Shown piece by piece: positions 30,794-41,710 of a DNA stretch of 64,000 nt. The translations under genes were made by a program, and so were the position numbers. The notes below the pieces were generated by a model that was not told the origin of the DNA, did no database searches, and was given only the letters and a program-made list of their open reading frames with translations. The stretch is from Tamlana sp. 2_MG-2023 (GTDB taxonomy: Bacteria; Bacteroidota; Bacteroidia; Flavobacteriales; Flavobacteriaceae): NCBI RefSeq assembly GCF_030548465.1, contig NZ_JAUOSF010000006.1, forward strand, positions 124,001-188,000. The letters are read 5' to 3'. Each line of letters begins with the position of its first letter. Positions within the stretch are counted from its first letter, which is position 1.

Positions 30794-31936
30794 ATGGATT
30801 TTAAGCTCTCTGAAGAACATATCATGATTCGCGATGCCGCTCGCGATTTTGCTCAAACTGAATTACTCCCAGGCGTGATTGAACGTGACACGAACCAACA
30901 CTTCCCCGATGAACTCGTAAAAAAAATGGGAGCCCTTGGTTTTTTAGGTGTTATGGTAGACCCCAAATACGGCGGTAGTGGCATGGACGCCATTTCTTAT
31001 GTGATTATTATGGAAGAGCTTTCTAAAATTGACGCTTCGGCTTCGGTGATTGTTTCTGTTAATAATTCGTTAGTTTGCTTTGGCTTGGAATGTTACGGTA
31101 CCGAAGCGCAAAAACAAAAATACCTTACAAAATTAGCTACTGGTGAATTTATTGGCGCCTTCTGCTTAAGCGAGCCGGAAGCCGGAAGTGATGCCACATC
31201 ACAAAAAACAACAGCCATTGATATAGGGGACCATTACATTATTAACGGTACCAAAAACTGGATTACAAGTGGCGGACGTGCCGATGTTTACTTAGTCATC
31301 GCACAAACCGATAAAGAAAAAGGCTCACACGGCATTAATGTTTTTATTGTTGAAAAAGGTACTGAAGGTTTTCATGTTGGACCTAAAGAAGACAAGCTAG
31401 GCATCCGCGGAAGCGACACACACACCCTTCAATTTAACGACGTTAAAGTTCCGAAGGAAAATAGAATTGGCGTTAATGGTTCTGGGTTTCGATTTGCTAT
31501 GAAAACACTTTCTGGTGGCCGTATAGGCATTGCCGCTCAGGCATTAGGCATTGCTTCGGGCGCCTACGAATTGGCTTTAAAATATTCAAAAACTCGTAAA
31601 ACTTTTGGGGTTGAAATTTGCAACCACCAAGCCATTGCTTTTAAATTAGCAGATATGGCCACTGATATTGAAGCCGCCAGACACTTAGTGATGAAAGCCG
31701 CTTGGGAAAAAGACCAAGGTTTAAACTACGATTTATCGAGTGCCATGGCGAAATTATTCGCTTCTAAAGTTGCTATGGAACACACGGTAGAAGCCGTTCA
31801 AATTCACGGAGGCAACGGTTTTGTAAAAGAATATCATGTAGAACGTTTAATGCGCGACGCCAAAATAACGCAGATTTACGAAGGCACTTCTGAAATTCAA
31901 AAAATCATTATCTCCAGAAGTATTACTAGAGATTAA
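30794..31936 (+). CDS. Acyl-CoA dehydrogenase
   Basis: A 380-residue FAD enzyme that oxidises acyl-CoA to enoyl-CoA in fatty-acid or branched amino-acid breakdown. FCLSEPEAGSDA binds flavin, NGTKNWITSGG is conserved, the catalytic Glu lies in IYEGTSEIQK near the C-terminus, and QIHGGNGFVKEYHVERLMRDAKI is the family signature. Length and motifs fit short-chain (butyryl-type) enzymes. It stands alone on its strand. Confidence 0.93.
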   Translation: MDFKLSEEHIMIRDAARDFAQTELLPGVIERDTNQHFPDELVKKMGALGFLGVMVDPKYGGSGMDAISYVIIMEELSKIDASASVIVSVNNSLVCFGLECYGTEAQKQKYLTKLATGEFIGAFCLSEPEAGSDATSQKTTAIDIGDHYIINGTKNWITSGGRADVYLVIAQTDKEKGSHGINVFIVEKGTEGFHVGPKEDKLGIRGSDTHTLQFNDVKVPKENRIGVNGSGFRFAMKTLSGGRIGIAAQALGIASGAYELALKYSKTRKTFGVEICNHQAIAFKLADMATDIEAARHLVMKAAWEKDQGLNYDLSSAMAKLFASKVAMEHTVEAVQIHGGNGFVKEYHVERLMRDAKITQIYEGTSEIQKIIISRSITRD

Positions 31937-32050
31937 CTATTAGGATTATTCATAAACTTTTGAATCCGTTGTAAACTATTTTTAAAATATTACAACGGAT
32001 TTTGTTATGTTGATTTAAACTTATCGACTTAAAATTTTAGATTTACAGAC

Positions 32051-32173
32051 TAACACCATTTCAACCCTATAATATCGCATATAATTTGTTTCTTTTTCAC
32101 TTGAGTTTTATATTTCATCTGAACAAAAAATAATTCAAATTAAAAATACGACATTATACAATTAAATTGGTAT
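32051..32173. mobile_element. MITE-like element, copy B (short, inverted)
   Basis: A 123-bp unit whose reverse complement aligns with copy A at 25014-25178. The half nearest the CMD gene (ATTTCATCTGAACAAAAAATA onward in shortened form to TTAAATTGGTATAA) is almost identical to copy A. About 40 central bases present in A are missing here. TIRs are more diverged than in A. It ends 16 bases before the ATG of the first arsenosugar gene, so it may supply or alter that promoter. Confidence 0.72.
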
Positions 32174-32189
32174 AACATAAAAACACATC

Positions 32190-32525
32190 ATGCAAAAAAC
32201 ATATTACGACCCTGCCGACTTAAAGAAATTTGGAAAAATTAGCGAATGGAACCCTGAATTGGGTGAGAAATTTTTCGATTACTACGGCAAAGTTTTTGAA
32301 GAAGGCGCCCTTACGGCTCGTGAAAAAGCACTTATCGCCTTAGCTGTTTCTCATACTGAACAGTGTCCGTATTGCATTGACGCTTACACCAAAGACAACT
32401 TGCAACGCGGTGTCACCAAAGAGGAAATGATGGAAGCCATTCATGTTGGCGCAGCCATTAAAAGTGGTGCGACGTTGGTTCATGGTGTTCAAATGATGAA
32501 TAAAGTGAATAAACTGGACATGTAA
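32190..32525 (+). CDS. Arsenosugar-associated CMD/AhpD-like protein
   Basis: A 111-residue carboxymuconolactone-decarboxylase-fold protein. CPYCIDAYTKDNLQRG (about residues 64-79) has the CxxC and downstream acidic/His region used by AhpD-type peroxidases. Small proteins of this type are regularly linked to arsS in arsenosugar clusters and annotated as peroxidase-like; their reaction is not settled. First gene of the cluster on the plus strand, 66 bases before arsS. Confidence 0.82.
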   Translation: MQKTYYDPADLKKFGKISEWNPELGEKFFDYYGKVFEEGALTAREKALIALAVSHTEQCPYCIDAYTKDNLQRGVTKEEMMEAIHVGAAIKSGATLVHGVQMMNKVNKLDM

Positions 32526-32591
32526 CCTGCTTCAAAAAATAAATGATCACACCCATTTCAAATCGATTTCTATAAAACTTAAAACAGATTA

Positions 32592-33647
32592 ATGGCTATA
32601 AAGTCCTTAAATAAGCGTGAAAGCGCACTAGCAAAAAGCGAAAAGCAACTAAAAATTTTATCAAATGGTATTTTCCAAAATGGGGATTTACCAACTTTTA
32701 AAACTAAAATTTCAGAAACGCATCAATTTCCGCTGAAAGCGAAAAAACTAGAGATTTTGCAAATTAATTTGGGCTATATGTGCAATCAGGTTTGTACCCA
32801 TTGCCATGTTGATGCAGGTCCAGACCGTAAAGAAATCATGACACGAGACACCATGCAACAGTGTTTGAATGTGATAAAAACAACCGGCGCGCACACATTA
32901 GATTTAACCGGCGGCGCTCCAGAGATGAACCCTGATTTTAGATGGTTTGTTGAAGAAGCTGCCAAAGCAGGGATTAAAGATTTCATTGTGCGCTCCAATT
33001 TAACTATCATTAGAGCAAACAAAAAATATTACGACCTTCCTGAATTTTTTAAAAAGCACAAAGTTCACGTAGTCAGCTCTATGCCACACTGGACCCGTGG
33101 AAAAACAGACAAGCAACGTGGTAATGGTGTTTTTGATAAGTCGATTAAAGCATTGAACGACCTCAACGCCATTGGATACGGTATGCCAGATAGCGACTTA
33201 AAGCTTGATTTGGTTTACAACCCTTCTGGTGCATTTTTACCTGGCGACCAGGCCTCCATGGAAAAAGAATTTAAAAAAGCATTGAAAGAAGATTTCAATA
33301 TTGATTTTCATAATCTTTTTGCCATTACCAATTTACCTATTTCTCGTTTCTTAGATTACTTGATAGCTTCTGAAAACTATGAAGATTATATGTATGCCTT
33401 GGTAGAAGCCTATAATCCAGAAGCTGTAAAAAATGTAATGTGTACCAATACCCTATCAATTAGTTGGGACGGCTATTTATACGATTGCGATTTTAATCAA
33501 ATGCTTGAACTTCCGATAAATAGTAAAGCAAAACATATTTCAGAGTATAACGCATCACTTTTAGAAGGTAGAAATATCGCTATCTCACAACATTGTTACG
33601 GCTGTACTGCTGGTGCTGGAAGCAGTTGCCAGGGTGTTGTTGCTTAA
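32592..33647 (+). CDS. arsS: Arsenosugar biosynthesis radical SAM protein ArsS
   Basis: A 351-residue radical SAM enzyme. Cys64, Cys68 and Cys71 in GYMCNQVCTHCHVDAGPDRK hold the 4Fe-4S cluster that cleaves SAM; TGGAPEMNPDF follows as the GGEP-like motif. The C-terminus, CYGCTAGAGSSCQG, is a second Cys-rich region of the family. In current models ArsS makes the 5'-deoxyadenosyl-arsenic product from dimethylated arsenic, the precursor of dimethylarsinoyl ribosides. Its stop codon runs straight into a hairpin repeat at 33647-33669. Confidence 0.93.
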   Translation: MAIKSLNKRESALAKSEKQLKILSNGIFQNGDLPTFKTKISETHQFPLKAKKLEILQINLGYMCNQVCTHCHVDAGPDRKEIMTRDTMQQCLNVIKTTGAHTLDLTGGAPEMNPDFRWFVEEAAKAGIKDFIVRSNLTIIRANKKYYDLPEFFKKHKVHVVSSMPHWTRGKTDKQRGNGVFDKSIKALNDLNAIGYGMPDSDLKLDLVYNPSGAFLPGDQASMEKEFKKALKEDFNIDFHNLFAITNLPISRFLDYLIASENYEDYMYALVEAYNPEAVKNVMCTNTLSISWDGYLYDCDFNQMLELPINSKAKHISEYNASLLEGRNIAISQHCYGCTAGAGSSCQGVVA

Positions 33648-33669
33648 TTCCTGAGAAAGCAGGAATCTC
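33647..33669. repeat. REP-like hairpin, copy 1
   Basis: ATTCCTG-AGAAAG-CAGGAAT followed by CTC, starting on the last base of the arsS stop codon. Same family as copies at 35834-35856 (inverted) and 36832-36854. Confidence 0.8.
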
Positions 33670-33675
33670 ATAACC

Positions 33676-34170
33676 ATGAAGAACTTAATTTTATTCATAC
33701 TTTTTTTAAGCGTTACAGCAGGTTTTGCACAAAAATCACTGGACAAACTGCTCAAAAAACATAATAACGATGCTGTTCCTTACATCACTGTTTCAGAATT
33801 ACAAAACACATCTTCAGAAGTTATCTATTTAGATGCCAGAGAATCCAATGAGTACGCGGTAAGTCATCTTAAAAACGCTATTTTAGTAGGTTACGATTTT
33901 TTCAGTATAGATTCTTTAAATGAAATAATTCATGAAAAAACATCAAGCATCGTCATCTATTGCAGCTTAGGAATGCGCTCGGAAACTATTGGCGAAAAAT
34001 TAAAACAAAACGGCTACACCAACGTAAAAAACCTATACGGTGGAATTTTTGAATGGAAAAACAACCATTTACCAGTTTACAACTCGCAAGATAAGGCCAC
34101 GGATAGCATCCATACCTATTCAAAATCTTGGAGTAAATGGTTAAAAAACGGCATTAAAGTATATGAATAA
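33676..34170 (+). CDS. Exported rhodanese-like protein
   Basis: A 164-residue protein with a signal peptide (about 1-19, ending in FAQ) and one rhodanese domain. The active-site loop is IVIYCSLGMRSE, with Cys near residue 96, then NVKNLYGGIFEWKN. It should act in the periplasm on sulfane sulfur or thiol arsenic species; thio-arsenosugars exist, so a link is possible but unproven. Its last eight bases overlap the next gene. Confidence 0.85.
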   Translation: MKNLILFILFLSVTAGFAQKSLDKLLKKHNNDAVPYITVSELQNTSSEVIYLDARESNEYAVSHLKNAILVGYDFFSIDSLNEIIHEKTSSIVIYCSLGMRSETIGEKLKQNGYTNVKNLYGGIFEWKNNHLPVYNSQDKATDSIHTYSKSWSKWLKNGIKVYE

Positions 34171-34786
34171 AGAACTCGTTATTGTATTTGTAAAAAACAT
34201 ACAACTTGGTAAAGTAAAAACACGATTGGCTAAAACCATAGGTGATGATAATGCCTTAAAGGTTTACAAAGCCTTATTAGAAATCACTGAAAATGTGACC
34301 AAAAACCTCGATACCGATGTTTGTATTCACTTTTCTGAAACCATAGACGATACCCTTTGGAAAAACACGAATAAAACCATCCAGCAAGGAAAAAACTTAG
34401 GGGACCGCATGAAAAACGCCTTTAAAACCAGTTTTGAAAAAGGTTATGAACGCATTGTTTTAATAGGGTCTGATTTGCCAAGTTTAACCACTGAGCACCT
34501 CAACACGGCTTTAGATAAATTACAACATAATGACGTTGTTTTTGGTCCTGCTGAAGATGGCGGTTACTATCTCGTTGGGCTAAGTAAAAAACATGATATT
34601 ATTTTCGAAAATAAGCCGTGGAGTGAAACTAATTTACTAGAAACCACGTTAAATGAACTGGATAAAAGAAAAGTAACTTATGCGCTTTTAGAATCCTTAA
34701 ACGATATTGATACTATCGAAGATCTTGAGGCTAATCCTCAACTTATGAAACTTGCTTTAAACAGCTCAAATCATAATAACCTTTAA
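34163..34786 (+). CDS. TIGR04282-type glycosyltransferase/nucleotidyltransferase of arsenosugar synthesis
   Basis: A 207-residue cytosolic protein of the DUF2064 family. It begins VIVFVKNIQLGKVKTRLAKT, a nucleotide-binding GxxKTRL pattern; GDRMKNAFKTSF and IGSDLPSLTTEHL with a metal-binding D follow, then FGPAEDGGYYLVGL. The family co-occurs with arsS and is named as an arsenosugar glycosyltransferase on that basis; its donor sugar is unknown. Overlaps the rhodanese gene by eight bases; 48 bases before PNP. Confidence 0.85.
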   Translation: MNKELVIVFVKNIQLGKVKTRLAKTIGDDNALKVYKALLEITENVTKNLDTDVCIHFSETIDDTLWKNTNKTIQQGKNLGDRMKNAFKTSFEKGYERIVLIGSDLPSLTTEHLNTALDKLQHNDVVFGPAEDGGYYLVGLSKKHDIIFENKPWSETNLLETTLNELDKRKVTYALLESLNDIDTIEDLEANPQLMKLALNSSNHNNL

Positions 34787-34834
34787 TATCAAAACTCAAA
34801 ATCTTTGCTTATTAAGTTTACAAAATAGATACTT

Positions 34835-35647
34835 ATGATAAATCAAATAGAAAAAACAACAACATATTTAATAGATAAAGGCTTCGACAAGCCTGAAATC
34901 GGTATTATTCTGGGCACGGGCTTAGGGCAGCTTATTGATGAAATAGAGATTATTAAGGAAATTAGTTATAATCATATTCCCTATTTCCCAACGGCAACCG
35001 TAGAATTCCATAAAGGAAAATTAATTTTTGGCTTGTTAGAAGGAAAAAAAGTTGTGATTATGCAGGGGCGCTTTCATTTGTATGAAGGTTACACACTACA
35101 GGATGTTACCTACCCGGTTCGCATTATGGAAAAACTAGGCATTCACACTTTATTAGTTTCTAATGCTGCAGGTGCTATTAATTTAGATTTCAAAAAAGGA
35201 GAGATTATGCTTATTGAAGACCATATTAATTTGCAAGGGGGCTCTCCCCTAGCCTTTAATGGTGTTGAAAAAATGGGTGAGCGTTTTGTGGATATGAGCG
35301 CACCTTATGATGCAGAAATCAATGAAAAATTTAAAAATATCGCCAAAGCCCATAACATTAATTTACACAACGGCGTGTACGCTAGTGTGGTAGGTCCACA
35401 ACTGGAAACCCGCGCTGAATACCGCATGCTTAAAATCATAGGTGCCGATGCCGTAGGGATGAGTACCGTTCCAGAGATTATCGTAGCCAACCATTTAAAA
35501 TTAAAAGTGGCTGCTGTGTCAGTTTTAACAGATGAATGCGACCCAGACAATCTGGAACCTGTAAATATTGAAGAGATTATTGCCATGGCTCACAAAGCTG
35601 AACCGGTGATGATTACTTTGTTTAAGGAACTTATAAAAAGTTTATAG
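34835..35647 (+). CDS. Purine nucleoside phosphorylase
   Basis: A 270-residue trimeric PNP-type enzyme that splits purine nucleosides with phosphate. IILGTGLGQLIDE, the phosphate-binding MQGRFHLYEGY, SNAAGAINLDFKKGE and GPQLETRAEYRML...ADAVGMSTVPE are all present. In an arsenosugar cluster it is placed to remove adenine from the adenosyl-arsenic intermediate made by ArsS, leaving the arsenical ribose. That role is inferred from context; general purine salvage is the alternative. Confidence 0.92.
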   Translation: MINQIEKTTTYLIDKGFDKPEIGIILGTGLGQLIDEIEIIKEISYNHIPYFPTATVEFHKGKLIFGLLEGKKVVIMQGRFHLYEGYTLQDVTYPVRIMEKLGIHTLLVSNAAGAINLDFKKGEIMLIEDHINLQGGSPLAFNGVEKMGERFVDMSAPYDAEINEKFKNIAKAHNINLHNGVYASVVGPQLETRAEYRMLKIIGADAVGMSTVPEIIVANHLKLKVAAVSVLTDECDPDNLEPVNIEEIIAMAHKAEPVMITLFKELIKSL

Positions 35648-35674
35648 AATACGATATCATAAAACTTTCACTGC

Positions 35675-35703
35675 GTCATGTCGAACTTGATTCGGCATCT
35701 CAT
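35675..35703. repeat. Dispersed GTCATGTCGAACTTG-type repeat
   Basis: The unit begins GTCATGTCGAACTTGATTCG and ends CATCTCAT. A relative, GTCACGCCGAATTCATTTCA then GCATCTC, lies at 56503-56529, with an opposite-strand partner just before it. The 216-base gap here (35648-35863) holds this unit, an A/T-rich stretch and a REP-like hairpin. Confidence 0.6.
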
Positions 35704-35833
35704 TAATTTTGAAAGCAAAAAACTTATGATTAAGCCTCTGAAATCTAAAATTCAACACAACTCTCTAGATTTGAGGTGAACATATTCTATTATGTTTTTT
35801 TACAGAAATTTGAAATAATCAACTTAAAACCAA

Positions 35834-35856
35834 GAGATTCCCACTTTCATGGGAAT
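35834..35856. repeat. REP-like hairpin, copy 2 (inverted, covariant)
   Basis: GAG then ATTCCCA-CTTTCA-TGGGAAT. It is the reverse orientation of copies 1 and 3 with paired changes in both arms (TG to CA and CA to TG), so pairing is kept. It lies eight bases before the arsM ATG. Confidence 0.72.
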
Positions 35857-35863
35857 GTAAATT

Positions 35864-36832
35864 ATGAGCTACCTAGAAACCACACACGATGTTTATAAAG
35901 AAGCCGCACTAACGCCAGACGTTGGCTTGTGCTGCACTACGAATCCGATTTGGGAATTACCGGGATTAAAAATTCCGAAAATCATGCAAGAGATGAATTA
36001 CGGCTGTGGCACCACGGTACATGCCCGCGATTTAACCAATAATCCAAAAATGCTTTACGTTGGTGTAGGCGGCGGTATGGAACTCTTACAGTTCTCGTAT
36101 TTCAATCGTCAAAAACATGGCGTTATTGGTATTGATGTCGTTGATGAAATGCTTGAAGCTTCAAGAAAAAACTTCATTGAGGCTGAAGCCCAAAACCCTT
36201 GGTTTAAAAGTGAATTCGTTGACCTTAAAAAAGGTGATGCCATGAATCTTCCGGTGGAAGACAACAGCATTGATGTGGCGGCACAAAACTGCCTTTTTAA
36301 TATTTTTAAAGCTGAAGATTTAAAGAAAGCCATTGCTGAAATGTACCGCGTTTTAAAACCTCACGGTAAATTAGTTATGAGCGACCCGACTTGCGAACAA
36401 CCGATGAATGATGCCTTACGCAATGACGAACGCTTACGTGCTTTATGCCTTAGCGGAAGCTTACCAATTGCCGAATACGTTAAAGCACTTACCGATGCTG
36501 GTTTTGGCACTATTGAAATTCGCGCTAGAAAACCTTATAGAATTTTAGATCCTAAAAATTATCCTACGGAAGAATTAATTTACATCGAATCGATTGAAGT
36601 TGCTGCCATTAAAGACCCCATGCCAGAAGATGGCCCATGTGTTTTTACTGGAAAAGCTGCTATTTATTATGGTGAAGACGATTATTTTGATGATAAAAAA
36701 GGACATGTTTTATTGAAAAATCAGCCCTTAGCTATTTGTGATAAAACCGCTGGAGCTTTAGCCGATTTAGATCGTGATGATATTTATATTAGTAAATCGA
36801 CTTACCACTATGATGGAGGTGGTTGTTGCTAA
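35864..36832 (+). CDS. arsM: Arsenite methyltransferase ArsM (arsenosugar type)
   Basis: A 322-residue SAM methyltransferase that methylates trivalent arsenic. GLCCTTNP (Cys23, Cys24) and NYGCGTT (Cys48) supply thiols that could bind As(III); the SAM loop is VGVGGGMELLQFS, followed by GIDVVDEML and NCLFNIFKAEDL. The protein ends GGGCC, a further Cys pair. It provides the methylated substrate for ArsS. Its stop codon runs into a third REP-like hairpin. It is separated from the next cluster gene by an inserted RAYT transposase. Confidence 0.93.
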   Translation: MSYLETTHDVYKEAALTPDVGLCCTTNPIWELPGLKIPKIMQEMNYGCGTTVHARDLTNNPKMLYVGVGGGMELLQFSYFNRQKHGVIGIDVVDEMLEASRKNFIEAEAQNPWFKSEFVDLKKGDAMNLPVEDNSIDVAAQNCLFNIFKAEDLKKAIAEMYRVLKPHGKLVMSDPTCEQPMNDALRNDERLRALCLSGSLPIAEYVKALTDAGFGTIEIRARKPYRILDPKNYPTEELIYIESIEVAAIKDPMPEDGPCVFTGKAAIYYGEDDYFDDKKGHVLLKNQPLAICDKTAGALADLDRDDIYISKSTYHYDGGGCC

Positions 36833-36854
36833 TTCCTGCGAAAGCAGGAATCTC
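36832..36854. repeat. REP-like hairpin, copy 3
   Basis: ATTCCTG-CGAAAG-CAGGAAT then CTC, starting on the last base of the arsM stop codon. The bases before it (GTTGTTGC) also match those before copy 1. Confidence 0.8.
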
Positions 36855-36940
36855 GTGAATTAGACCTAAAAGGTTAATTCAAGTGATATGAAAAACTATA
36901 GTTCTTAACCGATTTTAGTTTGAATTTTAGATATTTACTA

Positions 36941-36973
36941 AGACCCTTCAGGTTTTTAAAACCTGAAGGGTCT
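36941..36973. repeat. Left flanking hairpin of the RAYT unit
   Basis: AGACCCTTCAGGTTT-TTA-AAACCTGAAGGGTCT, a perfect 15-bp stem with a three-base loop. The arms are identical to those of the hairpin at 37595-37627. Confidence 0.92.
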
Positions 36974-37009
36974 ACCAACCAAAAAAACATAATATTTATT
37001 ATAGAAAAT

Positions 37010-37573
37010 ATGCAAACAGAAAAGTTAGTAGCAGGACATTATTATCATATTTACAATCGTGGAAATAACGGCCAAAATATTTTCATAGAAGCTATTAACT
37101 ACTCCTATTTTCTAGATTTAATCAAAAGACACTTACTTCCGGACTTCAAAATTTTAAGCTTTTGTCTTTTACCTAATCATTTTCATCTGTTATTAAAAAT
37201 TAATGAAGACTGCCCTAATCCTTCTCAAAATTTATCAAACCTATTTAATGCGTATACAAAAGGGATTAATAAGAAATATGACAGAACTGGAAGCCTTTTA
37301 GAAAAGCCCTTTAAAAGAATTTGTATTTTAAATGAAGCATATCTTAGAACTTTGATTTTATATATTCACTTGAATCCCGAGCATCACCAAATTCACAACA
37401 ATTTTAGCACATATAAATATTCATCGTACCAATCTATAATATCACAAGCCAAAACAAACCTTCAAAGAGAAGAGGTCATCAATCTATTTGATGATATAAA
37501 TAACTTTAAAGAAACACATCTTCAAAAAAAAGTAATTATTAATATTGAAAACGAAAATTTAATTCTGGAGTAA
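37010..37573 (+). CDS. REP-associated tyrosine transposase (RAYT)
   Basis: A 187-residue Y1-transposase-family protein of the RAYT (TnpA-REP) group, which acts on hairpin REP sequences as single-stranded DNA. GHYYHIYNRGNNGQNIF is the family N-terminus; LPNHFHLLLKI has the HUH metal pair (His57, His59); Tyr140 in YSSYQS is the likely nucleophile. ATG at 37010 is used; an upstream in-frame start would run through the left hairpin. Identical hairpins lie 36 bases upstream and 21 bases downstream. It appears intact and sits inside the arsenosugar cluster. Confidence 0.9.
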   Translation: MQTEKLVAGHYYHIYNRGNNGQNIFIEAINYSYFLDLIKRHLLPDFKILSFCLLPNHFHLLLKINEDCPNPSQNLSNLFNAYTKGINKKYDRTGSLLEKPFKRICILNEAYLRTLILYIHLNPEHHQIHNNFSTYKYSSYQSIISQAKTNLQREEVINLFDDINNFKETHLQKKVIINIENENLILE

Positions 37574-37594
37574 AAACTTCTAGTTTAGAAATTA

Positions 37595-37627
37595 AGACCC
37601 TTCAGGTTTTAGAAACCTGAAGGGTCT
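37595..37627. repeat. Right flanking hairpin of the RAYT unit
   Basis: AGACCCTTCAGGTTT-TAG-AAACCTGAAGGGTCT, the same 15-bp arms as the left copy and only the loop changed, in direct orientation. It ends 13 bases before the next gene. Confidence 0.92.
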
Positions 37628-37640
37628 GCGGGAATAAGGA

Positions 37641-38537
37641 ATGGAAAAATATTTAGACCTCATAAAAAAAGCCTATTCGGGTTACTGGAATTACCTCAAA
37701 CATGAGGTGCAATTCCCTAGTAATTGGGATAACTATTTTTATGGTTTAATCATTATTTCCCTACTTGTTTGGGGGCTAGAAATTATATTTCCTTGGCGGA
37801 AAAACCAATCGATTTTTAGGAAAGACTTTTGGCTAGATACCTTCTACATGTTCTTTAATTTCTTTCTTCTGAACCTTATCATATTAATCGCACTTTCAAA
37901 CACCGCCGCTGAAATTTTGAACGATGCCTTAAACGTTTTTGGTTTATCACTTTCTAGTTTTCAGCTTTTTGATGTGAACCAATTACCTACATGGTTGGGC
38001 TTATTGGTCTTTTTCTTGGTTTCAGATTTTGTACAATGGAACACGCATCGACTTTTGCACCGCGTGCCCTGGCTGTGGAATTTCCATAAAGTCCACCACT
38101 CGGTTAAAGAAATGGGCTTTGCAGCACACTTACGCTACCACTGGATGGAACCCATTGTTTACAAATCCTTACTTTATATTCCGCTAGCCATTATTGGCAA
38201 CTACAGTTCTAAAGACGTGGCTTTTGTTTACTTTTTCAGTATTGTTATTGGGCATTTAAACCATGCCAATTTAGGTTGGGATTACGGTGTGCTAAAATAT
38301 ATTTTCAACAACCCGAAAATGCACATTTGGCACCATGCAAAAGCCTTACCAAAACATCTGAAATACGGCATGAACTACGGACTCACATTCAGCTTTTGGG
38401 ATTATATTTTCAAAACAGATTATATTCCGCATAGCGGAAAAGACATTGAGCTGGGTTTTGACGGCGATGAAAACTTTCCGCAAGATTTTTTCAAACAGGA
38501 AATGTACCCCGCAGGTACTAAAACCTCAAAAGATTAA
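37641..38537 (+). CDS. Sterol desaturase / fatty acid hydroxylase family membrane protein
   Basis: A 298-residue integral membrane di-iron oxygenase family protein. Three to five hydrophobic helices precede His clusters HRLLH, HKVHH, HLNHAN and HIWHH...KHLKYG that would bind two irons. Substrate of this branch is unknown; members act on sterols, fatty acids or carotenoids. Its place between arsM and DUF547/TIGR04283 suggests a hydroxylation in arsenolipid or arsenosugar-lipid formation, which is speculative. Six bases before the DUF547 gene. Confidence 0.85.
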   Translation: MEKYLDLIKKAYSGYWNYLKHEVQFPSNWDNYFYGLIIISLLVWGLEIIFPWRKNQSIFRKDFWLDTFYMFFNFFLLNLIILIALSNTAAEILNDALNVFGLSLSSFQLFDVNQLPTWLGLLVFFLVSDFVQWNTHRLLHRVPWLWNFHKVHHSVKEMGFAAHLRYHWMEPIVYKSLLYIPLAIIGNYSSKDVAFVYFFSIVIGHLNHANLGWDYGVLKYIFNNPKMHIWHHAKALPKHLKYGMNYGLTFSFWDYIFKTDYIPHSGKDIELGFDGDENFPQDFFKQEMYPAGTKTSKD

Positions 38538-38542
38538 CCATT

Positions 38543-39316
38543 ATGAAAAGCCTTTTATTCTTAATTATTAGTTTTTTGCTACTTGGCACATTTCAGCTTC
38601 GCGCCTACAATGTCATAATAGAGATGAACACAAACATTACGACTGCAGATTCAATTTCAACAAAAACACAAGAACCGTTTAACCATCAATTGTGGGATGA
38701 CTTACTTCAAAAACACGTTTCTAACGACGGAAAAGTAAATTACAAAGGCTTTTTAGCCGATAAAAAACGACTTAATCAATACATTTCAAAATTATCTAAA
38801 AACACACCAAAATCCACTTGGAGCAAAGCAGAAAAACTCGCTTACTGGATTAATGCTTACAACGCCTTAACAGTTGATTTAATTGTTAGAAACTATCCCA
38901 TAAGGAGTATAAAAGACATCAAAAATCCTTGGAAACAGAGACTTTGGACACTCGGCGACACCACATATGATCTTCACGATATTGAACATGAAATTTTAAG
39001 AAAAATGAATGAACCTCGCATCCATTTTGCGATTGTTTGCGCTGCTGTTTCTTGTCCGATTCTACAAAACAAAGCTTTTACCGCATCAAATTTAGAGCTT
39101 CAGTTAGACCAAGCTGCTAGAACTTTTATAAATGATTCCGCAAAAAATAGCATCTCAAAAGAGCAGTTAGAACTATCTAAAATCTTTCAATGGTTTACTA
39201 AAGATTTTAAACACGGTAGTTCTTTAATTGATTATCTCAACCAATTTTCGAACGTACACATTTCCGCGAAAGCGAAAACCCATTATAAAGATTATATTTG
39301 GGACCTCAATGAGTAG
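38543..39316 (+). CDS. DUF547 domain protein, exported
   Basis: A 257-residue protein with an N-terminal hydrophobic signal (about 1-21). DUF547 segments include LAYWINAYNALTVDLIVRNYP, then DIEHEILR and HFAIVCAAVSCPIL, with a conserved Cys-Pro. The domain's activity is not established. It overlaps the TIGR04283 glycosyltransferase gene by eight bases, a pairing that supports joint function. One copy of the recurrent GC-rich 14-mer lies in its 3' end. Confidence 0.85.
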   Translation: MKSLLFLIISFLLLGTFQLRAYNVIIEMNTNITTADSISTKTQEPFNHQLWDDLLQKHVSNDGKVNYKGFLADKKRLNQYISKLSKNTPKSTWSKAEKLAYWINAYNALTVDLIVRNYPIRSIKDIKNPWKQRLWTLGDTTYDLHDIEHEILRKMNEPRIHFAIVCAAVSCPILQNKAFTASNLELQLDQAARTFINDSAKNSISKEQLELSKIFQWFTKDFKHGSSLIDYLNQFSNVHISAKAKTHYKDYIWDLNE

Positions 39317-40013
39317 TCAAATTTCCATAATCATCCCGGTTTTAAACGAAGCACCTTTTATTAGAAAGCTATTAGAGCATCTTTTAGATAACGCTTCCGC
39401 GGAAAATATTACTGAAATTTTAGTTGTTGATGGTGGAAGCACCGATGAAACACCACAAATTGTTCAAGCTTTTTCTGAAGGTCCTATCACGTATTTACAC
39501 TCGGAAAAAGGACGTGCCAAACAAATGAATTTTGGCGCTAAACAAGCCAATGGAGACATCCTCTATTTTCTTCACGCCGATTCCTTCCCGCCGAAATATT
39601 TTGATACATTCATTTTAGCTGAAGTACAAAAAGGCCATGAGGCTGGCTGTTTCAGAATGCAATTTGACAGCCAACATTGGTGGTTAAAATTAGCAAGTTG
39701 GCTTACGCAATTTTCATGGCGCGCCTGTCGAGGTGGCGACCAAAGTCAGTTTATAACCAAATCACTATTCCGCGACATTGGAGGTTTTGACGAACGCTAT
39801 ATTATCTATGAAGATAACATGTTAATTAACGCACTCTACGCCCGAAAGCAATTTGTTGTAATTAATAAAAAACTGCAAACATCGGCCCGATGTTATGAAG
39901 AACATGGCGTTTGGAAAATACAGTACATCTACTGGAGTGTTTACGTAAAAAAATGGTTTGGCGCTTCGGCCGAAGAACTTCACCAGTTTTATTTAAGTCG
40001 TGTTGCTAGGTAA
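39309..40013 (+). CDS. TIGR04283-type family 2 glycosyltransferase of arsenosugar synthesis
   Basis: A 234-residue GT-A transferase. SIIIPVLNEAPFIRKLLEHL opens the fold, VVDGGSTDET is the nucleotide site, ILYFLHADSFPP the DxD-type motif, and RACRGGDQSQFITKSLF a family hallmark. ATG at 39309 (MSSQISIIIP) is chosen; the longer form would add 27 residues that are translated from the DUF547 end in another frame. Family membership follows co-occurrence with arsS; donor and acceptor unknown. Confidence 0.87.
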   Translation: MSSQISIIIPVLNEAPFIRKLLEHLLDNASAENITEILVVDGGSTDETPQIVQAFSEGPITYLHSEKGRAKQMNFGAKQANGDILYFLHADSFPPKYFDTFILAEVQKGHEAGCFRMQFDSQHWWLKLASWLTQFSWRACRGGDQSQFITKSLFRDIGGFDERYIIYEDNMLINALYARKQFVVINKKLQTSARCYEEHGVWKIQYIYWSVYVKKWFGASAEELHQFYLSRVAR

Positions 40014-40195
40014 TTCGCAATAGAAACTTCTTATTTATTACAACATTTCTTGTTAGCTCATCAACTTGATTCATCATCAGCAAGGAGTCTGAAATGTTAA
40101 AAAACCTACAAAAGAGCCTTAACAAAACACTAAATGTTACAAATGTGTTTGTTAATCGTTATACATTTAGAGCATCAAACATCCAACAGAACCAC

Positions 40196-41710
40196 ATGAA
40201 AAAATTTTTACTCGTTTTTATTTTTAGTTCATTATGCATTCAAGCTCAAGAATCTATTCAAGCTAAATTATTAGATTCTATTTCAAAAGAACCCATTCCT
40301 TACGCCACTATATCTATAAACGAAAATTCGGGCGTGATTAGTAATGAAAATGGCGATTTCTCAATATACTTAACCGAGAAGACATCAAAAACCGATTCGC
40401 TAAAAATTAGATCTTTAGGCTATGAAACCAAACAGTTTTTAATTGAAGCCTTTCAAGATTCTATAGTGTTTCTAAATCAAACCTCTATCGAACTTGATGA
40501 AGTTATGGTTTCAAATAAAAATTATTCTACTGAAGAAATTATTGAAAAAATAAACGAAAATTTAGAAGAAAACTACAACCGTACGCCCATTAAAAGCCGC
40601 CTTTTTTATCGATCATCTAACTTTAACCGTGTCACAAAAAGTGATGTTGACATCAAAAAAACGAGTATTCCAGAACTTAATCAGCAGTTTATTGATAGCG
40701 TCGTTACAGCCATGCCAAAAGAAGCCGATGATCACACTGAAATATTAGCTGATATCTACGGCAAATCTGGCCTAGAAGATTCGCAAAAGTTAGATATCAT
40801 TAAAGCTTCTCATTTATATGATAAAAGCAATGAAGTTACTTTCGAGTTTTACGAAGAAAAGTTTAATAACATAATTAAAAAACACGTCAAAAGAGATTCC
40901 TATTTCAAAATAAAATCAGGCTTTTTCGGAACAAAACAAGATATAGATTCGACATTTTTCAATGAGCTCGATAACGATAAAGGTAGCCAAACAGAAGCCA
41001 TGCTTGAAGCAGAAAAGAAAAAAGAAAAAGAACGAAAAGCTGATTTTTTAAAGTACCGAAAATCGGCCATATCTGACATTCAAAATAACAGTTTTGTTTT
41101 TGAAGATAGCGACTTCAATTTTCTCGAAAAATCTAACCGCTACGAATTTAAACTCGAAGACTATAGTTTCTTAAACGATGAATTTGTTTATAAAATCAGC
41201 TTTAAACCCAAGCGTAGTGAAGATTACAAAGGCGTTATTTATGTAAGCACCGATGACTTTGCCATAATAAGGTTAGATTATGAAAACGTAAACCCCTTAA
41301 AAAAATTCAGCATGTTCGGGGTGTCTTATAAACATTACCATAAAAAAGGCACGATTATATATGCTAAAAACAGCCTTGGCACTTACGATTTAAGATATGC
41401 CGATGTAGAAAATGGTACGATATTCGAAATTGAGCGTCCCTTAAAAATCATAGAAAAAAATAAAAACACTAGAGGTAGAAGAAAGCAAAACGAATTATCT
41501 TCTGACATTCATTTTAAAGTTGGAAACACTGAAAAAAACGAATTAATCGTGTTTGAAAACGAAGTCATTTCAGAAGCTGAATTTGATGCATTCACCGAAA
41601 AACCTGATGTAAAACCAGTTTACCTCCCTAAATACGACCCCGAATTCTGGAAAGGTTACAATGTTATAGAACCCAACCAAGCTATAAAAGATTTTAAAAG
41701 TCTCGAATAA
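40196..41710 (+). CDS. Carboxypeptidase-regulatory-like domain protein, exported
   Basis: A 504-residue protein with a signal peptide (MKKFLLVFIFSSLCIQAQ). Residues about 20-110 form a CarboxypepD_reg-like beta-sandwich (DSISKEPIPYATISINENSG), common at the start of Bacteroidota surface proteins. The rest is charged, with a Lys/Glu helix near 270-290, and has no transmembrane barrel plug or recognised enzyme motif. ATG at 40196 gives the clean signal; an upstream in-frame start adds 34 unlikely residues. Role unknown; the 182-base gap before it holds no strong signal. Confidence 0.75.
   Translation: MKKFLLVFIFSSLCIQAQESIQAKLLDSISKEPIPYATISINENSGVISNENGDFSIYLTEKTSKTDSLKIRSLGYETKQFLIEAFQDSIVFLNQTSIELDEVMVSNKNYSTEEIIEKINENLEENYNRTPIKSRLFYRSSNFNRVTKSDVDIKKTSIPELNQQFIDSVVTAMPKEADDHTEILADIYGKSGLEDSQKLDIIKASHLYDKSNEVTFEFYEEKFNNIIKKHVKRDSYFKIKSGFFGTKQDIDSTFFNELDNDKGSQTEAMLEAEKKKEKERKADFLKYRKSAISDIQNNSFVFEDSDFNFLEKSNRYEFKLEDYSFLNDEFVYKISFKPKRSEDYKGVIYVSTDDFAIIRLDYENVNPLKKFSMFGVSYKHYHKKGTIIYAKNSLGTYDLRYADVENGTIFEIERPLKIIEKNKNTRGRRKQNELSSDIHFKVGNTEKNELIVFENEVISEAEFDAFTEKPDVKPVYLPKYDPEFWKGYNVIEPNQAIKDFKSLE

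Follow-up and report, generated by a model that had tools for sequence, protein, structure and literature searches.

The 64,000-nucleotide stretch of Tamlana sp. 2_MG-2023 DNA analyzed here (contig NZ_JAUOSF010000006.1, positions 124,001-188,000; below, the window, whose own numbering is used for all coordinates) carries between 32190 and 40013 a run of ten plus-strand genes that encode, in order, a CMD-like protein, the radical SAM enzyme ArsS, a rhodanese, a TIGR04282 protein (T82), a purine nucleoside phosphorylase (PNP), the methyltransferase ArsM, a Y1-type transposase, a di-iron protein of the FA_hydroxylase/sterol-desaturase family (FAH), a DUF547 protein (D547) and a TIGR04283 protein (T83) (Table 1). 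An original prediction, made from the DNA sequence alone, had listed nine of these genes in this order and on this strand as an arsenosugar cluster; all nine are present, and only the transposase gene had been overlooked. Seven of the nine match curated NCBIfam families over their cut-offs, and FAH and D547 were identified through Pfam, both over cut-off as well. The translated ArsS carries the CxxxCxxC motif, residues C96 and R101 of the rhodanese are conserved in the alignment, and for T83 the ATG at 39309 is favored over a longer frame that starts with TTG.

Table 1. Features of the arsenosugar locus in the window (scores are given with the cut-off of the family model).
Feature	Position	Strand	Evidence
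CMD/AhpD-like peroxidase-like protein	32190..32525	+	TIGR04169 194.5 bits, cut-off 120
ArsS radical SAM enzyme, DUF3641 C-terminus (PF12345)	32592..33647	+	TIGR04167 442 bits, cut-off 300
Rhodanese, CX4R loop, signal-peptide-like N-terminus (by eye)	33676..34170	+	NF045521 205.7 bits, cut-off 145
T82 (TIGR04282/DUF2064), putative arsenoribose-1-phosphate nucleotidyltransferase	34163..34786	+	TIGR04282 204.2 bits, cut-off 134
PNP, putative cleavage of adenosyl-arsenical	34835..35647	+	NF006054 346 bits, cut-off 218
ArsM, arsenosugar type	35864..36832	+	NF038099 575.9 bits, cut-off 400
REP-like palindrome, left copy, 31 bases	36942..36972	.	sequence
Y1-type (REP-associated-like) transposase gene	37010..37573	+	NF047646 47.2 bits (cut-off 80, below); PF01797 21.6 (cut-off 23, below)
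REP-like palindrome, right copy, 31 bases	37596..37626	.	sequence
FAH, complete His motifs	37641..38537	+	PF04116 95.8 bits, cut-off 31
D547, signal-peptide-like N-terminus (by eye)	38543..39316	+	PF04784 99.1 bits, cut-off 27
T83 family-2 glycosyltransferase	39309..40013	+	TIGR04283 236.9 bits, cut-off 182

The core of this cluster is already known and not new, because NCBIfam has the word "arsenosugar" in the names of five families (TIGR04169, TIGR04167, TIGR04282, NF038099 and TIGR04283, here the CMD-like protein, ArsS, T82, ArsM and T83), all of which lie over their cut-offs in the one same-strand run; D547 and FAH carry no arsenosugar name there. In these families ArsM methylates arsenic and ArsS forms the adenosyl-arsenical, and the same enzymes were reportedly found to make this compound by Cheng et al. 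in 2021 (ArsS) and by Xue et al. in 2017 and 2019 (ArsM/ArsS), work cited in PMC12159101 and PMC8787705. Identification of the locus as an arsenosugar cluster is borne out by these family matches and by the distribution of the sugar-type ArsM in 66 genomes, in which it scores over cut-off in 0 of 34 without ArsS (a subset of the 299 genomes surveyed below, with no ArsS over cut-off and completeness of at least 90%) and in 32 of 32 with the ArsS cluster, although the latter were chosen for having a cluster and their 32/32 values for T83, D547 and ArsM partly reflect that choice. The arsinothricin cluster arsQML is likewise an arsenic biosynthesis system in which an ArsM is paired with a radical SAM enzyme, according to excerpts of PMC8552651 and PMC12159101, but its radical SAM reaction and product are different (as the excerpt of PMC12159101 describes them), and the window ArsM reaches 94.6 bits on the arsinothricin-type ArsM model, whose cut-off is 500.

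ArsS is over cut-off in 215 of 299 sampled Flavobacteriaceae genomes, and its relatives, up to 90% identical, are mostly from this family (among the best 80 of 588 matches). Gene neighborhoods were counted in these best 80, which are biased to close relatives, plus 80 more loci from the upper part of the 299-genome survey list; removal of identical ArsS reduced the 160 loci to 155, and 139 had sufficient flank. Clusters that carry a 7-8 kb insert (below) are undercounted, since no stretch extends further than 9-10 kb from ArsS. On this basis the arsS stretch contains the CMD-like gene in 137 loci, T82 in 112, PNP in 112, rhodanese in 95, ArsM in 92, D547 in 84, T83 in 72 and FAH in 49 (in two of these FAH lies 7-8 kb upstream). 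The CMD-like gene is the labeled gene that precedes arsS in 137 of the 139, PNP is the next labeled gene after T82 in 112, and PNP-ArsM and D547-T83 are adjacent labeled pairs 84 and 73 times, respectively. The gene arrangement is thus not due to chance, since the same order recurs in the sampled relatives, and the proposed recurrent linkage of D547 and T83 to arsS holds.

Linkage to the later genes is absent from some other arsS loci, for example in Muricauda and Maribacter, where arsS has just the CMD-like gene, often plus a divergent T82-like gene. The original prediction had named such absence as evidence against itself, and to that extent the test went against it; on the other side, when 16 genomes with arsS apart from the later genes were searched for D547, 12 still had a close one (at least 200 bits), 11 of them away from arsS and one in the same long cluster (G072, which proved to be a single cluster), and the remaining four had weaker relatives only (108-130 bits). 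The 12 D547 stretches include T83 in 11, ArsM in nine and ArsM between PNP and D547 in eight. Because nine of the 12 contain it, ArsM tends to accompany the sugar part when clusters split; the exceptions are L038, L058 and L096, where it remains beside ArsS. In about 20 loci an insert of T82-like, SusC, SusD, sodium-symporter-like and metallophosphoesterase genes lies ahead of ArsS or separates it from the rhodanese (e.g., L121:11124-18737 and L161:2018-9948, the latter from Maribacter with the metallophosphoesterase fused to a CMD domain), and this set ties the arsenic part to transport across the outer membrane. Eleven loci have a gene for a Pit-type phosphate transporter, as do the plasmid loci of Acinetobacter and Cupriavidus described below. 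In two loci from the genus of the window genome (L032 and L033) an ~8 kb insert with four other genes, which is not in the window, separates T82 and PNP.

In a wider sample, drawn from the phylum, 80 of 198 genomes have ArsS over cut-off. Forty loci from other families of the phylum and a set of plasmid loci gave 47 stretches, two of which have no ArsS profile match (L265, and L238, a second stretch of the record of L235), leaving 45 (39 phylum and six plasmid). D547 lies near ArsS in 12 of these, and 11 of the 12 score at least 100 bits; the expected number is 0.77, a value that assumes three copies per 3.5 Mb and treats as independent loci that are in part related. With a threshold of 100 bits, T82 is near ArsS in 21 loci and T83 in 19, and three further loci have T83 in a fusion that is counted under T82. 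For example, an Acinetobacter portensis plasmid has ArsS, D547, T83, T82, a methyltransferase and the phosphate transporter, with an MTA phosphorylase and a sterol desaturase on the opposite strand; a Burkholderia glumae plasmid has ArsS, D547, T82, T83 and MTA phosphorylase; a Cupriavidus plasmid has ArsS, T83, MTA phosphorylase and D547 in a region without annotation in the record; a Thiodictyon plasmid encodes a T83-like protein that scores 162.4 bits, short of the 182-bit cut-off, together with a sterol desaturase, ArsS and T82; and a Hymenobacter plasmid has D547, T83, an epimerase-like protein, an SDR protein and ArsS. On a Pseudanabaena plasmid ArsM and ArsS are present, but no T82, T83, DUF547 or desaturase is annotated within 8 kb, and for the T83 of a Gloeothece plasmid the annotation shows no ArsS within 8 kb.

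The three MTA phosphorylases bear on the loss of adenine, which the original prediction had given to PNP. MTA phosphorylase converts a 5′-modified 5′-deoxyadenosine to adenine and a sugar-1-phosphate. All three are over the cut-off of TIGR01694, and all three loci (two of the three from Burkholderiaceae) also carry T83 and D547 in the stretch around ArsS. The replacement of PNP by MTA phosphorylase in these three proteobacterial loci supports the idea that the ArsS product is likewise phosphorolysed, by PNP in the window and its relatives and by MTA phosphorylase there. The window PNP itself is over cut-off on TIGR01700 (297.8 bits; cut-off 293.35) in addition to NF006054, and at 94.5 bits it is well below the MTA phosphorylase cut-off of 274.85.

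What would follow phosphorolysis is suggested by T82. A sugar-1-phosphate needs a nucleotidyltransferase before a family-2 glycosyltransferase (GT2) can use the sugar. The predicted T82 structure (pLDDT 92.2) best matches 3cgx, a putative nucleoside diphosphate (NDP)-sugar transferase (Z 26.8), followed by the 3-phosphoglycerate guanylyltransferase 7p97 (Z 19.7, rmsd 2.5, 185 residues aligned), CofC-like 2i5e (Z 18.2), FbiD 6bwh (Z 16.6), and IspD, TarI and GlmU (Z 12-14); the glycosyltransferase mannosylglycerate synthase gives Z 13.3. The nucleotidyltransferase fold extends over 185-191 aligned residues, which is a shared fold and not proof of function. T82 also matches the CofC family PF01983 (44.8 bits, cut-off 22), and a GxxKTRL loop is invariant in 30 T82 sequences, its KTR being present in 120 of 128 T82 proteins versus 3 of 43 divergent T82-like proteins; CofC has a comparable K-T/S-R loop. 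NCBIfam calls TIGR04282 a glycosyltransferase, whereas the model suggests that T82 is a nucleotidyltransferase like CofC/FbiD, phosphate-ester guanylyltransferases with a similar fold. The name fbiD is already in use, since an excerpt of PMC8801600 writes TIGR04282 as "arsenosugar biosynthesis gene fbiD". In three distant loci T83 and T82 are fused near arsS, T83 first, in proteins of 427-464 residues (L249:7089-8372, L250:7010-8404 and L273:12679-14034), and these fusions fit consecutive steps. Away from the cluster, G236:C1:142930-144525 and six other genomes have a second T83-like/DUF547-like gene pair, some members of which are below the T83 cut-off, so T83 and DUF547 seem to move as a pair.

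We consider it fairly probable that the locus is an arsenosugar biosynthesis operon in two parts, arsenic and sugar, in which phosphorylase, nucleotidyltransferase and GT2 enzyme act in that order, with every step after ArsS inferred. By analogy with characterized relatives, ArsM would convert arsenite to a dimethylarsenical, and ArsS would join this to the 5′-deoxyadenosyl group of SAM. PNP would then phosphorolyse the ArsS product to adenine and 5-deoxy-5-dimethylarsinoyl-ribose-1-phosphate, T82 would convert this arsenoribose-1-phosphate to NDP-arsenoribose, and T83 (family GT2) would transfer arsenoribose from the NDP-sugar to an acceptor; D547 and the di-iron membrane protein might modify either this product or the lipid or glycerol that accepts the sugar. 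PNP inverts, giving an alpha-1-phosphate from a beta-nucleoside, and GT2 enzymes invert again, so two inversions would yield a beta-riboside, as in natural arsenosugars; the title of PMC6656958 gives the beta configuration for one of these. The pathway that had been proposed for the locus is thus partly supported: it appears right in outline and is sharpened at the T82 step, its arsenolipid end is not supported, and its sugar part may also function independently of arsenic.

The excerpts of PMC12159101 and PMC8787705 do not assign the steps after ArsS to genes, and the titles and abstract openings of the open-license PMC papers retrieved report no tested arsenosugar-synthesis function for DUF547, TIGR04282 or TIGR04283. 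Set beside these partial sources, the gene-by-gene order phosphorylase, nucleotidyltransferase, glycosyltransferase for the sugar half of arsenosugars is a proposal that can be tested with three proteins. New here are the linkage support for DUF547 and TIGR04283, the MTA phosphorylase substitution, the proposed T82 activation step and the suggestion that the attachment half can occur without arsenic genes.

Several observations weigh against this two-part arsenosugar assignment. A single PNP match per genome was found in 61 of the 66 genomes (and none in five), so PNP probably serves general purine metabolism too. The PNPs of the clusters have Asp where human PNP has Asn243, and human PNP engineered to carry both Glu201Gln and Asn243Asp cleaves adenosine analogs (excerpt of PMC2799393); the Asn-to-Asp pocket change is compatible with adenine release, no more. 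As a marker of arsenosugar clusters this Asp was rejected, the same residue being present in 17 of 17 inspected PNPs from ArsS-less genomes, six of them outside any such module. Nucleotidyltransferases and glycosyltransferases have a common GT-A-like fold, and on the CofC equivalog model TIGR03552 T82 scores 54.7 bits, under its cut-off of 105. Finally, rhodanese, T82 and PNP occur in order in 11 of the 34 genomes that have neither ArsS nor sugar-type ArsM, with T83 past PNP in ten of the 11 and D547 between them in six; in the eleventh genome, G289, D547 and T83 are on another contig. Neither ArsS nor ArsM gave a match above 100 bits in the 11 stretches. Among the 34 genomes as a whole, T83 is over cut-off in 11 and D547 reaches at least 200 bits in eight, and the idea that the later genes are devoted solely to arsenic is not supported by these counts, given that 11 genomes retain most of the module.

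Could the sugar part (rhodanese, T82, PNP, D547 and T83, with FAH) then be a general pathway from nucleoside to activated pentose to riboside or ribosyl lipid, into which ArsM and ArsS feed an arsenical nucleoside in some lineages only? The ArsS-less modules fit such a pathway, as do the four-base overlap of the T82 and PNP genes in one of them (L192) and the genes near the rhodanese in two ArsS-less loci (an ADP-ribosylglycohydrolase and an APH-fold kinase, L195:12501-14785, and a nucleoside hydrolase, L197:4884-5822). A T83 tree with 98 rows includes 12 from these 11 ArsS-less genomes (one of them, L209, a distant second copy), and their placement needs nine label changes, at least four of which are forced by starred branches of a bootstrap that had not settled. 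FAH of at least 290 bits is moreover present in 11 of 11 ArsS-less genomes with T83 versus 1 of 23 without (P 4e-8, uncorrected for relatedness). Given the retention of the module in 11 ArsS-less genomes and the label changes on the tree, ArsS seems to have been gained or lost several times while the module persisted. Yet the same picture would result if ArsS and ArsM had been lost recently and the other genes lingered, the ArsS-less rows are somewhat clustered (nine changes against a shuffled-label mean of 11.4), T82 and T83 are often near ArsS outside the Flavobacteriaceae, and the NCBI names link both of these families to arsenosugars. We regard a general pathway of this kind as rather unlikely. 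Its fuller form, in which rhodanese, TIGR04282, PNP, DUF547, TIGR04283 and the di-iron membrane protein are a free-standing system that recycles nucleosides into NDP-pentose, ribosides or ribosyl lipids, and ArsM/ArsS were plugged in and out several times, we hold to be rather unlikely too; if it were true, an undescribed bacterial riboside would exist of which arsenosugars are the arsenic-bearing form, and should the module make a product of its own in the absence of arsenic, that product would be a bacterial glycoside or lipid still to be discovered.

FAH belongs to its superfamily by its PF04116 score and by conserved His boxes (in an alignment of 50 sequences, His 136, 140, 149, 152, 153, 228, 231 and 232 each show conservation of 97% or more). 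FAH of at least 290 bits is found in 44 of the 66 genomes, 32 of 32 with ArsS and 12 of 34 without, and its co-occurrence with T83 in the ArsS-less genomes indicates that it tracks the sugar genes and not ArsS and ArsM. The original prediction had the locus make arsenolipids, with the di-iron protein, D547 and T83 building a lipid on the arsenosugar. In its favor, the closest NCBIfam model of FAH is the ornithine-lipid hydroxylase OlsE NF052566 (80.9 bits, far under the cut-off of 475), arsenolipids have been reported from a cyanobacterium (excerpt of PMC12159101), and FAH-type proteins are near ArsS in four of the 45 distant loci, a weak excess over the 0.9 expected (P about 0.01) from which a fifth FAH-like match (L246, 64 bits, 9.6 kb off) is excluded. 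These four, however, are only 25-31% identical to the window FAH over part of its length and closer to each other, and from this comparison they are not its orthologs. The predicted linkage of the di-iron protein is therefore partly supported, by the 49 of 139 Flavobacteriaceae stretches that contain it and not by the four distant loci, where the family member is non-orthologous. In addition, although 18 of the 32 cluster genomes have FAH in the operon, in 14 it lies outside (316-396 bits; two of the 14 lie 7-8 kb upstream of arsS). An arsenolipid end product is thus not supported by this genome comparison, and we consider it improbable.

The same counts raise the alternative that the di-iron gene entered the operon as a passenger in certain branches of the Flavobacteriaceae and serves an unrelated lipid role. 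None of the 32 cluster genomes has two FAH copies above 290 bits, so that where FAH is outside the operon it is the single copy, and the 139 loci include 35 ArsM-FAH and 39 ArsM-D547 adjacencies, i.e. operons with and without FAH. A passenger would not be expected to co-occur with T83 in ArsS-less genomes as FAH does, nor to be packed so tightly with D547 (five bases separate the two genes in the window), and we take the passenger explanation to be a real possibility that falls somewhat short of an even chance.

Residues N104, N107, H161, C166 and D221 of D547 are conserved in the alignment, and the protein is probably sited outside the cytoplasm. It matched none of the NCBIfam families at E 0.001. 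Its predicted structure has a pLDDT of 91.1, and no convincing match to it was found in the PDB (Foldseek best E 0.9; VIA best Z 4.9; sequence search, a weak coat-protein match at E 0.049), which neither demonstrates a new fold nor implies a mechanism for the model. A role for the rhodanese as an Acr2-type arsenate reductase was set aside; the Acr2 loop is CX5R, and the loop here, C-S-L-G-M-R, is CX4R, as in sulfurtransferases. With regard to regulation, an Rfam search of 31800-40300 at E up to 1 gave a sole match far under the gathering score (29 of 54 bits, E 0.31), and the Bacteroidetes promoter consensus has seven matches in the window versus 7.5 by chance, none of them in 31937-40013.

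The transposase gene and the two palindromes that flank it are an insertion in the operon between arsM and FAH, as judged by comparison with relatives: the ArsM match is separated from the FAH match by 811 bases in the window and by 231 and 280 bases in two genomes of the same genus (G084 and G291). The flanking REP-like palindromes are those expected of the REP-associated tyrosine transposase class, and the protein itself is below the cut-off of the NF047646 model. The 31-base palindrome has 13 copies in the genome, and a reversed control pattern has none. As hairpins inside the operon, the palindromes could weaken expression of FAH, D547 and T83. After T83, the gene at 40094-41710 resembles by eye the CarboxypepD_reg-domain protein sited downstream in 12 other loci.

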